From positions 1-24,010 of the IMG/VR virus record IMGVR_UViG_3300042521_001271: 24,010 nt of DNA; one strand, given 5' to 3'. A model generated the notes under the pieces. It was not told the origin of the DNA. It saw only the letters and a list, made by a program, of their open reading frames with translations, and searched no databases. This document shows positions 8,850-18,631 of this stretch, piece after piece (position 1 is the stretch's first letter; each line of letters starts with the position of its first letter). Origin of the DNA: a virus. A program made the position numbers and the translations under genes.

Positions 8850-9344
8850 TCAAAAATAATTAAAGTTTATTACTATCCGATAATTTGAATTTGTACAAGT
8901 GGTTCCTGTATGTAGTATGTTACCATCAAATTCGACATACCTATTTGCAACACTTTCCACTTTAGAACCATCTTCAAATTTTGTGTAGCCGTTATTATCA
9001 TTTAAGTAATATATTCCAGTCTTAAAATTTGAAAATGGTTGGTCTGTATGGTAACCATGTTCTATTATTTCATGAGTTCTGGTTGTCAGATTACATTTTA
9101 TTCTAACTAAAGCTTTGGGTTTTAAGTTATCAATAAAAGGTGTCAACAACTCAATGTAATCACTAGTTGGTCTAAATCCATGATAAAACCCATGATAAAA
9201 TTGAAAGTTATAATTTGGGTTACAAAATTTTTCGTGATAATCGTCAAGAACTTTACTGTAATGCCAAGGAAAACTATCTGATGTTATTCCTTGTTGCAAT
9301 TGTAAAAAATCTTTTTTGGATAAAAAATTATCGATTATATTCAT
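8850..9344 (-). CDS. 2-oxoglutarate/Fe(II)-dependent oxygenase
   Basis: This 164-aa protein is a prolyl-4-hydroxylase-like 2OG/Fe(II) dioxygenase, using 2-oxoglutarate and O2 to hydroxylate a protein or other substrate. The iron triad is visible: H99 and D101 in HTDQPF, and H145 in ILHTGTT. R156, which would bind 2OG, lies 11 residues later in YRIVINFNYF. Length and motif spacing suit the small phage members of the family, which are frequent in cyanophages; their substrates are unknown. Its start overlaps the end of the 54-aa gene by 17 nt, implying coupled translation, and it belongs to the unit started by the promoter at 9559-9587. The fold call is strong, the substrate unknown. Confidence 0.85.
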   Translation of the reverse strand: MNIIDNFLSKKDFLQLQQGITSDSFPWHYSKVLDDYHEKFCNPNYNFQFYHGFYHGFRPTSDYIELLTPFIDNLKPKALVRIKCNLTTRTHEIIEHGYHTDQPFSNFKTGIYYLNDNNGYTKFEDGSKVESVANRYVEFDGNILHTGTTCTNSNYRIVINFNYF

Positions 9345-14145: not shown

Positions 14146-15426
14146 TTATGCTAATTGCGTTTTAATGTCATATGAATCTTTAACCAATTCAAGCGCAGTG
14201 TAACAATCCTTCCCAGAAAACGCATGGTGTAATGCCGTTATCATATAGCGACCAGAACTAATTGATTCGTAATTTTTATTTTGCATTTGGGAAGCTGTCT
14301 CGGGTATTCTACACTCTATAATTTGACCTGCTCTTAATGAAGGATTACATGGAATAGTAATTTTTAATATCTGAGAGAATAAAAGATTGTACCTTACGAC
14401 AGCTTCTGCTTGATATTTAGGTAGGTCTGGATACAAAGAATCTTTGCTTAACTTTCCAGTCTTATCTAATGCACCAACATCTAAAGTTCTAACAAAATAT
14501 CTAGATGGGAAATCTTGCATGTTCCCTGGCAGTGGTGGATATGTATCTGTAAGATTACCTGATGAGGTTACAATCTCACCATTATACTTCTGTTTTAATT
14601 GAAAGTCAACAAACTTAGGTTCATTTGTATACAGATTGTAAAACAAACTTTTGTTTGCATACATTCCCAAACGCAATGAATTCAATACATCATTGTTCTT
14701 TTCAATATACGAATTTAATATCCTGTATTTGTTAGCAACACGATTTGCATTTGTAACATCTTCCTGAGTATAGATTGGAACATTAGTTCCGCCTTTTAAT
14801 AGTGTGTTAATACTTTTAAATACAAATCCATCTTGTGTTTCAAAGAAAAAATATCCTGGTGATTTTTTGTCAGGCGCTACAGCTTTAGGACATAAGAAGT
14901 TAAGTAAATCAAATGGTCTTTTATTATTTCCTACAAAAGAATAATTATTAGAACTCTTCTCGGTTACAATTGTTTTATTACTTTTTAATTGGCGGAATAT
15001 TTTTTCTGCACTGACTCCTACGTTACCATCAAATCGATTTGGAACTCTAACAATTTCATTCATTAGAGTTTCATAACTAGTCAACTCTAAATTGTAAACA
15101 CTTTTTGTAGATTCTCTTAAAGATTGTATCGTTCTAATTCTCAATCCTTTTCCTGGAGTAGAAAAATTAATCTCTCCACCTTGAAAATCTGGCACATTAA
15201 TTGATCCTAATAGTTCTTCTCCACCATATAATTCAAGTCCAGAACTTTTAGTAATATCAATTATAGCAAAACTAATTCTTGCTGTAACCCCTGGCGATAA
15301 TACGTTTTCATAAAAAGAAAAACTCGCAATGGATTTTGCACCTAAATCAATCTCCTTTAAATTAGAACTTGATTTAAGTGGTTTTATTTTAAAGCTGCCA
15401 TATTCAAAACTATTTTCTGCAGACAT
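14146..15426 (-). CDS. 27: Baseplate hub protein, gp27-like
   Basis: This 426-aa protein resembles the gp27/gpD-type hub that forms the trimeric ring joining tail tube to spike. Support: phrases such as SFYENVLSPGVTARISFAI, VYNLELTSYETLMNE and AEKIFRQL, the middle segment FFFETQDGFVFKSINTLL, and a C-terminal part with LKITIPCNPSLRAGQIIECRIPE and GRYMITALHHAFSGKDCYT, which read like the two barrel domains of this fold. Its position just upstream of the gp5-like gene (separated only by CP12) matches its expected partner. Its ATG shares one base with the stop of the VanY-domain gene. Primary sequence similarity to T4 gp27 is low, so the call rests on motif style and context. Confidence 0.7.
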   Translation of the reverse strand: MSAENSFEYGSFKIKPLKSSSNLKEIDLGAKSIASFSFYENVLSPGVTARISFAIIDITKSSGLELYGGEELLGSINVPDFQGGEINFSTPGKGLRIRTIQSLRESTKSVYNLELTSYETLMNEIVRVPNRFDGNVGVSAEKIFRQLKSNKTIVTEKSSNNYSFVGNNKRPFDLLNFLCPKAVAPDKKSPGYFFFETQDGFVFKSINTLLKGGTNVPIYTQEDVTNANRVANKYRILNSYIEKNNDVLNSLRLGMYANKSLFYNLYTNEPKFVDFQLKQKYNGEIVTSSGNLTDTYPPLPGNMQDFPSRYFVRTLDVGALDKTGKLSKDSLYPDLPKYQAEAVVRYNLLFSQILKITIPCNPSLRAGQIIECRIPETASQMQNKNYESISSGRYMITALHHAFSGKDCYTALELVKDSYDIKTQLA

Positions 15427-16409
15427 TAACCAGTGGGGGTGATGAAGAAAGGATTAGCCGTAATCTTATTTAGTGACAGATTTGGAGGTGTCGTGGGTTC
15501 ATTTTGCTTTACTGGTGGTGAAACACTAGGATTATCTGGTGGAGCAACTAATGCTAGTAATAAAGATTCAGGTTCTTCTTTCGTATTATATGAAACAAGA
15601 TTGTTGTTTTGATTATTAGTTTTTTTAGTTACTGGTTCAACTTTACTTTGAGGTGTATTAATTGCACTTCCTTTCCATTCAAAATGCCAAGGTTCATTTG
15701 ATACTGTTGAATACCAACCATACTGACCACCATATCTTCGGATCCATTGTTGTGCTCCTGGTGAACTAATATCAATTGCAATTCCCCAACCATGTGCAGA
15801 AGTTCCTGGTGGTGCAGCTCCTGGATTTGTTGGACTCCATGTTCCAAGTTCTTCCTCTAACTTTGCCTGTTCTTCATAAGTTCTATAAGCACTTGACAAT
15901 TTAAAATATACTTTATTTCTGGCGGCGGCAGCTTTCATTTGCAAGTAAGATTCTGCTGCTGGAGCCCATAGTTTAAACCCATCACCTACATCTCTTAATT
16001 GATCTGGTTTTAATCTTCCATTTGAACCGTCTGGTTTAGTTTCTTGCTGCTCCTGTATCTCTTCACTAATAACCATTGAGGCAACACCAGTTCCCAAAAA
16101 TGTCTGGAGAATTTCTTTATTAAAACTTGTTTCTTGAGCAATTTCTGCCTTTTGTTTTTCTTCCTGTTGTCTCCTTTCATCTATTCTTTCAAGATCAGTT
16201 TTTTGTATTTGATTTGTTCTTTGCAATTCCTTTTCAAGTTCATGAGAACGTTTTTTTAATTGTTTTAATAAAGATAAATTACTTTTAATTAGTTTAGATG
16301 TTTTAATATAATCATACTTTGTTTTATCAATAAAGACAGTGATATCTTGTACTCTATCTTTTACAATATCAATATCTTTACTAATGGTTTCCGCAGTTAT
16401 TTTTGCCAT
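15426..16409 (-). CDS. Tail-associated VanY-type peptidoglycan peptidase
   Basis: This 327-aa protein starts with ~100 residues of charged coiled coil (KELQRTNQIQKTDLERIDERR) and then a VanY/D-Ala-D-Ala carboxypeptidase-type domain at about 135-246. Metal and catalytic residues are visible: R176 in SAYRT, H206 and D213 in SAHGWGIAID, and E239 and H242 in EPWHFEW. This enzyme would cut peptide bridges in the host wall. A Pro/Thr/Asn-rich tail follows. It lies 2 nt after the lysozyme-domain gene and directly before the hub gene, so it is more likely part of the injection machinery than of the lysis system. No signal peptide or membrane segment is seen. Confidence 0.8.
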   Translation of the reverse strand: MAKITAETISKDIDIVKDRVQDITVFIDKTKYDYIKTSKLIKSNLSLLKQLKKRSHELEKELQRTNQIQKTDLERIDERRQQEEKQKAEIAQETSFNKEILQTFLGTGVASMVISEEIQEQQETKPDGSNGRLKPDQLRDVGDGFKLWAPAAESYLQMKAAAARNKVYFKLSSAYRTYEEQAKLEEELGTWSPTNPGAAPPGTSAHGWGIAIDISSPGAQQWIRRYGGQYGWYSTVSNEPWHFEWKGSAINTPQSKVEPVTKKTNNQNNNLVSYNTKEEPESLLLALVAPPDNPSVSPPVKQNEPTTPPNLSLNKITANPFFITPTG

Positions 16410-16411
16410 AT

Positions 16412-17740
16412 CTACGCTTGCTTAACAGCATTGAGATTGATTGCTGTTGCAATTGGATAAGGATCTTTAGGATTTGTTGCTGGAAGAATAGGAGCAGATG
16501 CATGAGATGTTGTTGGTGCTCCCCCAGTTCCTTCAGGAATTGTTGGTGATTTAGTTGGAGCATTTAATAATGCTATTTGTGGTGACATGGCTTTGCCACC
16601 AGTTTCTTGTGCTAAAACTTGAGCATTTAATTTTTCTTGCTGAACACTAATCATAGTTCCTGGGGAAGATATTTGTGCTACTTGTGGTGGATCACCTGTT
16701 GCCCCTCTGCCTTTCATTTTGCTTGATTGATTACCAAGATCCTTAAATTTATCAAACGTATTAATTGTGTTTAATCTTTCTAATGATTTTTCTTCTTTGT
16801 TTGCAGGGTTTTCAAAATTTATTGTAAAATCCTTTGATGCATCTGCTGGTGTTGCAAAAGATTTTTTCAAATATGTTTTCATCGCTGGCTCAGACAGTGC
16901 ATAATCAACCTGACCTTTCCAATCTTTTGCCCAATCTGTGCCTACAGATTTAAACATTGTTTGAGCACGTCCACCACCCAAATTAAATTGAAACAATCCA
17001 AAAGAATTAGGTTTTCCATTTTCATAATCTCCCATTGCACCAGAATCAAATCCAGATTCATGTTCAATGTTGTTTAATATTCCAACTGCATGTGTATGAC
17101 TAATGCCTTTTGAAATTAAATAATGATATATTTCTTGGGCTCGTACTGGATTAGAAATAGGCTCTCCACCAATAAATTGATTTAAATCTTCTTCATCTTT
17201 CCCCCGCATCATTCCAGATATTCCAACACCAAAACCCAAAGCCGAAATTAGCGTACCCATTTGACGCTCTTGTTCCATTTCAGCTTGACGTTGCTGCCCT
17301 CTTTCTTCAGCTGCTTTAATTATGTCTTGTGTTGTTGCTTGCAATGCTTGCAATTTAGTAGCTTTAGAAATCTCAGAGCTTCTTTGTTGTTCTTCTTTTA
17401 CTGATTGTCTTGCTTCAATATTTCTACCTTTTATATCACCAAGTATTAGAGAAAATAATCCTGAGAGTTGTGAAGTTAATAAATCAACTCTACCAGTTAA
17501 TCCATCAACTAATGATTGCAATCTTATCTTTTCTGGATCTTCTTTTAATTGATCTTCCTCATCATTTATATCTATTTCAGTTTTAATAATTCTAAGAAGT
17601 CTAGATAAATCATCTCCACCAGAATAGACAGCTCGTGTTCTTTGCACACTTGCAGCTGGAGATGCAGCACCTTCAATTACTGCTTCTCCAGCACCAAAAA
17701 ACTTACTTGCGTCTATAGCCTTTGGGGATTCTTCATCCAT
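16412..17740 (-). CDS. Baseplate/tail protein with Phage_lysozyme2-like domain
   Basis: This 442-aa protein has a helical N-terminal third (about 42-160, Glu/Gln/Arg-rich coiled coil), a short hydrophobic glycine-rich stretch (164-177), and then a tail lysozyme domain at about 200-330. The domain shows AVGILNNIEHESGF with the likely catalytic Glu228, followed by GDYENGKPNSFGLFQF, the pattern of Phage_lysozyme2. The C-terminus is Pro/Thr/Ala-rich. It would cleave host wall glycan during injection. It starts within the last codons of the gp26 frameshift extension (8-nt overlap). Sitting right behind a frameshifting chaperone-type gene it occupies the place where tape-measure genes usually lie, but its helical part seems short for a full tape measure. 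Confidence 0.75.
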   Translation of the reverse strand: MDEESPKAIDASKFFGAGEAVIEGAASPAASVQRTRAVYSGGDDLSRLLRIIKTEIDINDEEDQLKEDPEKIRLQSLVDGLTGRVDLLTSQLSGLFSLILGDIKGRNIEARQSVKEEQQRSSEISKATKLQALQATTQDIIKAAEERGQQRQAEMEQERQMGTLISALGFGVGISGMMRGKDEEDLNQFIGGEPISNPVRAQEIYHYLISKGISHTHAVGILNNIEHESGFDSGAMGDYENGKPNSFGLFQFNLGGGRAQTMFKSVGTDWAKDWKGQVDYALSEPAMKTYLKKSFATPADASKDFTINFENPANKEEKSLERLNTINTFDKFKDLGNQSSKMKGRGATGDPPQVAQISSPGTMISVQQEKLNAQVLAQETGGKAMSPQIALLNAPTKSPTIPEGTGGAPTTSHASAPILPATNPKDPYPIATAINLNAVKQA

Positions 17741-17912
17741 TTTGTTTTTCTGCTTCCTTTTCTTCTATGTATTGTTTTAGAAGTTCAAGATAGGTTTCTC
17801 TTTCCCAAGGAATCATATTTTCTATTTCAGTAAGAGAATACTTATGAACTTGCATTAGCGCAAAGTTGATCCTGAAATATGTTTCAAGATCTTCTTTGGC
17901 TAGGGCTAGCCG
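17733..17912 (-). CDS. -1 frameshift extension of gp26 (59 codons)
   Basis: This frame has no good start of its own: it opens right at the slippery site in gp26 (upstream in-frame TGA at 17919-17921). It reads RLALAKEDLETYFRINFALM and then a helical acidic segment including YSLTEIENM and ending KEAEKQNG, stopping at 17733-17735 inside the next gene's start. Its amphipathic composition and IExM...WErexY pattern recall the T-type domains of tail-assembly chaperones. With the shift it makes a 299-aa fusion (240 residues of gp26 plus 59). An internal ATG at 17855 would give only 40 residues and has no well-placed ribosome site, so frameshifting explains the frame better. Confidence 0.75.
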   Translation of the reverse strand, partial: RLALAKEDLETYFRINFALMQVHKYSLTEIENMIPWERETYLELLKQYIEEKEAEKQNG

Positions 17913-18631
17913 AAAAAATCAGTTAAACCCTCCAGAACGATACTATTCTCTTTTCCAGTGTTAGGATTGACTACTTGTAATGTATGACTCAACTTAGGCA
18001 TTGTTTTAAAGAACTGTTCAATTTTTTTATATTGCTTGGGAGTTAACTTCTCAACATAATCAATCAGTTCTTTTTCAGTACAGTCAGAAGCCATCCAACA
18101 ATCTTCTTCATTATAAACGCTTTCCATACATGATGCAATAAGTTTTACAGATCGTTCTACATTCTCTGAAGACTTTTCTGAAACATCAAAGTTGTTTTCA
18201 ATAAATTGATTTAAAGATGGATATTTCATTTGCCAATGATATCCATTTTCCATATCAATTTTATTGGTATGTCCCTCTAGATATTGAACTTGAATTTCAT
18301 CTACAAATAATGTAACTGGAACTTCTGTTTCACCATCATCACCACAAGTGATTACAAGTTCAATAGACTCGCCAATAGATTTAGCACGAATATTTAAAAA
18401 CAAGTATTCAATATCAAACGAAGGAAGTTCTTCAATTTTAATTCCTTTAGTGAGAATACAATTAGACAATACTTGTTTAATTGCGTCAGTAATTTGTTTT
18501 GGATTTCTAGATTCTAATGCAATGATTAAAACCTTTTCTTCCTTAACAAGGAATGGTCTATATTTGATCTTCTTTTTATTTGATGGAAGAGTCAAATCAT
18601 ATTGTGGAACAGTATATTCTGGTAATGGCAT
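17906..18631 (-). CDS. 26: Baseplate hub/assembly protein gp26
   Basis: This 241-aa protein matches the T4 gp26 baseplate family. The N-terminal KIKYRPFLVKEEKVLIIALES block (about 21-41) is the family hallmark, followed by ITDAIKQVLSNC and by IEYLFLNIRAKSIGE. A central region is beta-rich, and the C-terminal half is helical (YPSLNQFIENN, LIDYVEKLTPKQYKKIEQFF). In T4 gp26 acts in hub assembly and is needed in small amounts. Length is slightly above T4 gp26 (208 aa). It lies 26 nt after the gp54-like gene. The last codons hold an apparent programmed frameshift, so two products, 241 and 299 aa, are expected, like the G and GT chaperones of lambda. Confidence 0.85.
   Translation of the reverse strand: MPLPEYTVPQYDLTLPSNKKKIKYRPFLVKEEKVLIIALESRNPKQITDAIKQVLSNCILTKGIKIEELPSFDIEYLFLNIRAKSIGESIELVITCGDDGETEVPVTLFVDEIQVQYLEGHTNKIDMENGYHWQMKYPSLNQFIENNFDVSEKSSENVERSVKLIASCMESVYNEEDCWMASDCTEKELIDYVEKLTPKQYKKIEQFFKTMPKLSHTLQVVNPNTGKENSIVLEGLTDFFG
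17912..17933 (-). promoter_or_regulatory. Programmed -1 frameshift signal (SD-like element plus U UUU UUC)
   Basis: On the minus strand GGAGG (17929-17933) is followed by 10 nt and the slippery heptamer T TTT TTC (17912-17918) in the correct zero-frame phase (GAT TTT TTC GGC TAG). The zero-frame stop at 17906-17908 is one codon further on. The bases right after the heptamer (17898-17911) form an inverted repeat GGCTAG/CTAGCC. An SD-like stimulator ~10 nt upstream is the dnaX arrangement of E. coli. Confidence 0.8.

Follow-up and report, generated by a model that had tools for sequence, protein, structure and literature searches.

A very probable programmed -1 ribosomal frameshift joining gp26 to a gp51-type domain in a T4-like phage of the cyanophage group

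Gene 26 of the T4-like phage described here, a member of the cyanophage group, very probably ends in a programmed -1 ribosomal frameshift. The shift would give two products, a 241-aa gp26 and a 299-aa protein in which gp26 is fused to a gp51-type domain. Together they would form a tail chaperone pair. The parts of the signal, their conservation, the selection on the extension and the homology to T4 gp26 and gp51 are read directly from the sequence. The first-pass annotation of this DNA had proposed such a mechanism for gp26, and the proposal is supported, as the sequence comparisons capable of refuting it came out in its favor.

Results

The window, meaning the whole stretch of DNA that was analyzed, is the complete virus record IMGVR_UViG_3300042521_001271 of 24,010 bases. 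The features of the gp26 locus are as follows.

17906..18631, minus strand: gp26 (TAC-N-type) ORF in the zero frame, 241 aa; PF12322 T4_baseplate, E 4.4e-70; phrog_150, E 7.3e-74
17929..17933, minus strand: SD-like GGAGG, 10 nt upstream of the heptamer
17912..17918, minus strand: slippery heptamer T TTT TTC, in phase with gp26
17906..17908, minus strand: zero-frame stop TAG, 3 nt past the heptamer
17856..17902, minus strand: two-part RNA stem, putative stimulator, downstream of the heptamer after a 9-nt spacer
About 17847-17911, minus strand: predicted outer pairs that lengthen the stem at 17856-17902
17733..17912, minus strand: -1 frame extension with the gp51 (TAC-C-type) domain, 59 new codons plus stop; phrog_634
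17733-17735, minus strand: extension stop TGA, closing the -1 frame
16412..17740, minus strand: next ORF, 442 aa, lysozyme-domain and tape-measure-like; PF18013, E 2.1e-17; phrog_9570 tape measure, E 5.2e-14

The PF12322 match of gp26 scored 236.2 bits against a curated cut-off of 24.5. On the minus strand, the 3' end of the gene reads GAT TTT TTC GGC TAG. Four elements claimed in the first-pass annotation are present as described: the U UUU UUC heptamer in the correct phase, the GGAGG exactly 10 nt before it, the zero-frame stop 3 nt beyond it, and an inverted repeat (GGCTAG/CTAGCC) directly 3' of it. The -1 frame does run 59 codons into the start of the next gene as claimed, but it opens at the heptamer and not one codon earlier. 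From the slip it holds 61 codons, 59 of them new, and the fusion has a computed length of 299 aa, in agreement with the 241- and 299-aa forms first suggested. The next ORF (16412-17740, minus strand) begins before the extension ends. Upstream, the nearest -1 stop (TGA, 17919-17921) lies right next to the heptamer. Ribosomes could therefore enter the extension only by slipping at the heptamer or from an internal start. Copies of the gp26 protein that are 100% identical occur in six IMG/VR contigs (L003-L008).

The junction was compared across 80 IMG/VR loci and 21 named phages of the frameshift type. The gp26 stop was readable in 79 of the loci; L079 was left out, having no gp26 stop inside its contig. 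In L027 and L050 the extension is cut by the contig end, and both were kept in the heptamer count and left out of the 93 complete extensions. Merging these 93 at 90% nucleotide identity gave 51 representatives, which include the window and 15 named phages. Except for Aeh1, which was taken by accession, the named phages were chosen by eye to cover a wide range of the 329, 588, and 533 records in three lists. By name or record, their hosts are cyanobacteria, Vibrio, Aeromonas, Cronobacter, Rhizobium, Sinorhizobium, Agrobacterium, Caulobacter, Pelagibacter, and Methylophilales; the C48C1 record gives no host.

An in-phase heptamer was found 10 nt before the gp26 stop in all 79 readable loci (78 TTTTTTC and 1 TTTTTTT). 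In-phase TTTTTT followed by C, T, or G also closes gp26 in all 21 named phages (C in 15, T in 5, G in 1). This conservation of the heptamer and of the -1 frame behind it in relatives had been set beforehand as a test of the frameshift, and it held. All 51 representatives carry the heptamer (TTTTTTC in 45, TTTTTTT in 5, TTTTTTG in 1), although such counts across homologues are not independent trials because the rows share ancestry. The heptamer stands 7, 10, or 13 nt before the stop in homologues, and the identity of the stop varies (TAG 26, TAA 17, and TGA 8 among the representatives). Codon choice at the junction is biased. For the residues encoded there, codon usage predicts a slippery site in about 44% of sequences, against the 51 of 51 observed. 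T TTT TTN occurs in phase at only 5 of 11990 other gp26 codon positions, and just 2 of the 52 other FF pairs in the gp26 of the representatives are slippery. Rhizobium phage RHph_I1_9 keeps a slippery TTTTTTG, though its second residue is then Leu. Judged from these comparisons, the heptamer is conserved beyond chance. A sequencing error or gene decay was rejected because all frameshift relatives inspected share this arrangement.

The extension matches phrog_634, "baseplate hub assembly catalyst" (gp51), with E 2.4e-25, and also the C-terminal part of phrog_150 with E 1.8e-7. Across the 51 representatives, the -1 frame stays open for 54 to 68 codons from the slip. As a control, none of 9028 segments taken from the gp26 bodies of the 51 homologues had a -1 frame open for 58 codons. 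Past the gp26 stop, the median dN/dS of the extension is 0.20 over the 252 usable pairs, i.e., those of 1275 possible pairs that fell within the saturation and length limits. This ratio indicates that the extension is under purifying selection.

An alternative reading takes the small frame as a separate gene (gp51) with its own start or with termination-reinitiation, as many public records annotate it. Of the 20 named records of the frameshift type that were viewed, 16 give the extension a CDS of its own, and all 20 list gp26 without a join. In 32 of the 51 representatives, the extension frame has an ATG no later than codon 8 (the slip itself covers codons 0 and 1), mostly just past the gp26 stop, which makes reinitiation possible in those 32. 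A conserved start for the small frame, which would speak against a frameshift, is nevertheless not found across the family: 17 of the 51 representatives, the window included, have no ATG, GTG, or TTG in this frame before codon 15. In the window itself, none appears before codon 21, which already lies inside the conserved domain. With rare starts allowed as well (ATT, ATC, ATA, CTG), only 6 of the 51, the window among them, lack a start before codon 10. A separate gene would also need no heptamer, no frame open back to the heptamer, and no fused counterpart of the kind seen in T4 gp51. We consider this alternative very unlikely. A mixed arrangement is somewhat less improbable, yet still doubtful. 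In the marine clade, an ATG in the hairpin would be used as well. One gene would then yield short gp26, the fusion, and, by reinitiation, a free gp51 domain, three products whose balance the hairpin would set; lineages like that of the window would use the frameshift only. Records in which no CDS is annotated on the extension are those of DSL-LC03, ACG-2014e, S-CAM4, and Cronobacter phage S13 (L083, L084, L085, and L101).

The proposed frameshift would draw on an upstream and a downstream stimulator. Of the 51 representatives, 30 have a GGAGG in the 30 nt before the heptamer, always exactly 10 nt away, and the other 21 have none over this distance. By comparison, GGAGG was present in 57 of 10915 control segments of 30 nt (0.5%). 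Part of this conservation is coding, since the same bases encode a conserved Leu-Glu-Gly. Even so, the GAG codon is used in 35 of 39 of the upstream EG motifs versus 6 of 27 other Glu-Gly pairs.

Downstream of the heptamer, a 74-nt segment of the window folds at -25.9 kcal/mol (z -5.26), and 0 of 200 shuffles folded as well. In 45-nt segments from the 51 representatives, the mean z reached -2.4 to -2.6 at three offsets from the heptamer (0, 7, and 12) and stayed between -0.58 and +0.22 at the remaining 15. At these three offsets, z was below -2 in 32 or 33 of the 51; at +7, 18 of the 51 had z of -2 or above. The 60-nt segments gave weaker values, with mean z of -1.75 to -2.32 near the heptamer versus -0.92 to +0.22 elsewhere, and z below -2 in 21 to 29 of the 51 near the heptamer versus up to 11 of the 51 elsewhere.

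An alignment of 22 loci (A1) was used to examine pairing; its percentages favor the stem because these loci were selected for one common stem geometry, and in it 92.1% of stem cells are paired versus 26-44% when the structure is slid. Three stem pairs change on both sides, one of them appearing as U-A, G-C, and A-U. The counts of both-side changes alone prove nothing, since the structure slid by +2 has equal counts of such pairs and cells (3 and 7). The covariation score is 0.152 for the real structure and 0.062 when slid by +2. Across all 51 representatives, 68% of core pairs are formed versus 24-47% when slid, and at least 6 of the 8 core pairs form in 28 of the 51. The window forms 2 of these and has its own stem at 17856-17902 instead.

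The GGCTAG/CTAGCC repeat was rejected as the main stimulator. It does form in the shorter 45-nt fold, and the longer stem wins in the 74-nt fold of the window. The repeat is absent from L018, whose gp26 is 71% identical to that of the window. The early suggestion of a structure after the heptamer thus stands in part: folding predictions indicate that the downstream stimulator is probably the longer stem beginning 9 nt past the heptamer rather than chiefly the GGCTAG repeat. The window has both the upstream SD-like site and the predicted downstream structure, and neither is universal in the family.

Slippage of RNA polymerase on the T6-T8 run could in principle add a base, so that the fusion would come from altered transcripts. 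At least six Ts are present in 51 of 51 representatives, with runs of 8 in HTVC008M, Melnitz, and C48C1, but 45 of 51 have six Ts and then a C, a run that is short for RNA polymerase slippage, and an SD-like site at fixed spacing together with a hairpin fits ribosomes better; this is the least credible of the explanations weighed.

The homologues in T4 place the two products of the proposed frameshift in context. Both gp26 (208 aa) and gp51 (249 aa) of T4 belong to PF12322, and T4 gp51 runs on from the gp26 domain into the phrog_634 domain (E 1.2e-23). T4 therefore has as two genes what the window has as two frames of one gene. One PF12322 gene per genome was found in 21 of 21 frameshift phages, and two were found in T4 and in Aeromonas phage 60AhydR15PP. 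A frameshift at T4 gene 26 itself was considered and rejected: its FF is encoded by TTC TTT, which is not slippery, and the -1 frame beyond it is gene 25 and not an extension. Aeromonas phage Aeh1 (L109, NC_005260.1, about 119000) has a gp51-like -1 frame extension after gp26, with TTTTTTC. Aeh1 and Cronobacter phage S13 belong to Straboviridae, as does T4, so both strategies occur within that family.

The claim that gp26 is a chaperone-type gene agrees with these short and long T4 paralogues; the fold of its N-terminal part is suggestive only. Short and long forms with a common N-terminal part, the mark of tail assembly chaperones (TAC), are predicted here from the sequence and seen in the T4 paralogues. 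The predicted model of gp26 has a pLDDT of 84.5. A Foldseek search of this model against the PDB returned nothing at E <= 0.001 (best E 0.29; HK97 chaperone E 1.7). With the same PDB candidates, VIA-align placed the HK97 tail assembly chaperone first, at Z 7.8, a value below the level trusted on its own, with an rmsd of 4.2 over 85 residues. Next came 3fgx (7.5) and 3klu (7.2), which we take to be relatives of tail assembly chaperones, before a drop to 4.7. The gp26 profile gave one chance-level match (E 0.23) among the sequences of solved structures. Against viral models, Foldseek found 62 matches at E <= 0.001, some of them named baseplate hub subunit. Taken as modeled, the N-terminal fold of gp26 suggests a TAC-like protein.

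The ORF just downstream of gp26 matches tape-measure profiles and also a lysozyme domain. In HTVC008M, phiM12, and Cr30, the tape-measure-like CDS is the third after gp26.

Discussion

We propose that most ribosomes would stop at the UAG and release the 241-aa gp26, the short form (TAC-N). Pairing between the GGAGG and 16S rRNA, together with the downstream hairpin, would keep a minority on U UUU UUC. These ribosomes would slip back one base and produce the 299-aa fusion of gp26 with the gp51-type C-terminal domain, the long form (TAC-NC). That ribosomes slip, how efficiently they do so, and what the SD-like site and the stem contribute are inferred. The short and long forms would probably act together as chaperones of the putative tape measure protein encoded downstream, an activity that is likewise inferred.

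Xu, Hendrix, and Duda reportedly described in 2004 tail chaperone frameshifts of the lambda gpG/gpGT and P2 E/E' kind. In both systems, a short form and a -1 extended long form are encoded before the tape measure gene. The gp26 locus resembles them in having a short form and a -1 extended long form. It differs in its protein family, judged by the Pfam and PHROGs scans, and in its junction, where a U UUU UUC site is combined with an SD-like element and a hairpin. In E. coli dnaX, an SD-like stimulator lies about 10 nt upstream and a hairpin downstream, and the shifted frame leads to a shorter product. The gp26 junction shares the SD-like site at about 10 nt and the downstream hairpin. Unlike in dnaX, where the shifted frame ends early, the gp26 shift would give a longer product, and the heptamers differ.

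The gp26 frameshift is already known in kind, and the same proposal for T4-like phages was published in 2022. Vladimirov, Gautam, and Davidson (Virology 2022) are said to have identified the T4-like tail assembly chaperone genes. They reportedly describe a frameshift that several T4-like groups conserve, while T4 relies on genes 26 and 51. Their work reportedly concerns the same gene family and the same frameshift, of which the window is a further instance. We rate the finding as known in kind on the basis of that study and of the PRFect and Adele papers, which cite it. PRFect (PMC10885494) cites it for some T4-like phages that have separate short and long chaperone genes and no frameshift. 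The paper on phage Adele (PMC12846349) cites it for poly-T frameshift signals in the TAC-N genes of T4-like phages. In the Vandenendeviridae phage Adele, as at gp26, a -1 frame extends the chaperone at a T-rich site, and the case is made from conservation; the motif there is GTTTTT rather than the TTTTTTC of gp26, and the phage families are others (PMC12846349). The first-pass annotation knew of no description for gp26 of cyanophages. None was found in the literature searched, which did not extend to the full text of Vladimirov et al. 2022, but the idea for T4-like phages had been printed by then. As far as the literature searched goes, the three-part signal, the Aeh1 case, and the phage of the window may be additions.

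If the frameshift is real, cyanophage gp26 and its tiny gp51 are one gene with two products. According to Sullivan et al. 2010 (PMC3037559), gp51 seems to lack about 200 residues in cyanophages and vibriophages, and Aeh1 has no gp51. The frameshift, if true, would account for both the short gp51 and its reported absence in Aeh1 (PMC3037559). The annotation would then need mending, since gp26 stands without a join in every named record viewed. The frameshift in one gene and the paralogues of T4 also offer a natural comparison of two routes to a short and long pair.

Beyond the junction, the tape-measure and lysozyme or peptidase matches in the window are divided between two neighboring ORFs (442 and 327 aa; 15426-17740, minus strand). 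P-SSM4 and ACG-2014e have in this place a single long ORF annotated as endolysin. A DNA endonuclease V-type gene (phrog_274) lies at 8850-9344 on the minus strand, between a large tail-fibre gene and the tail module.
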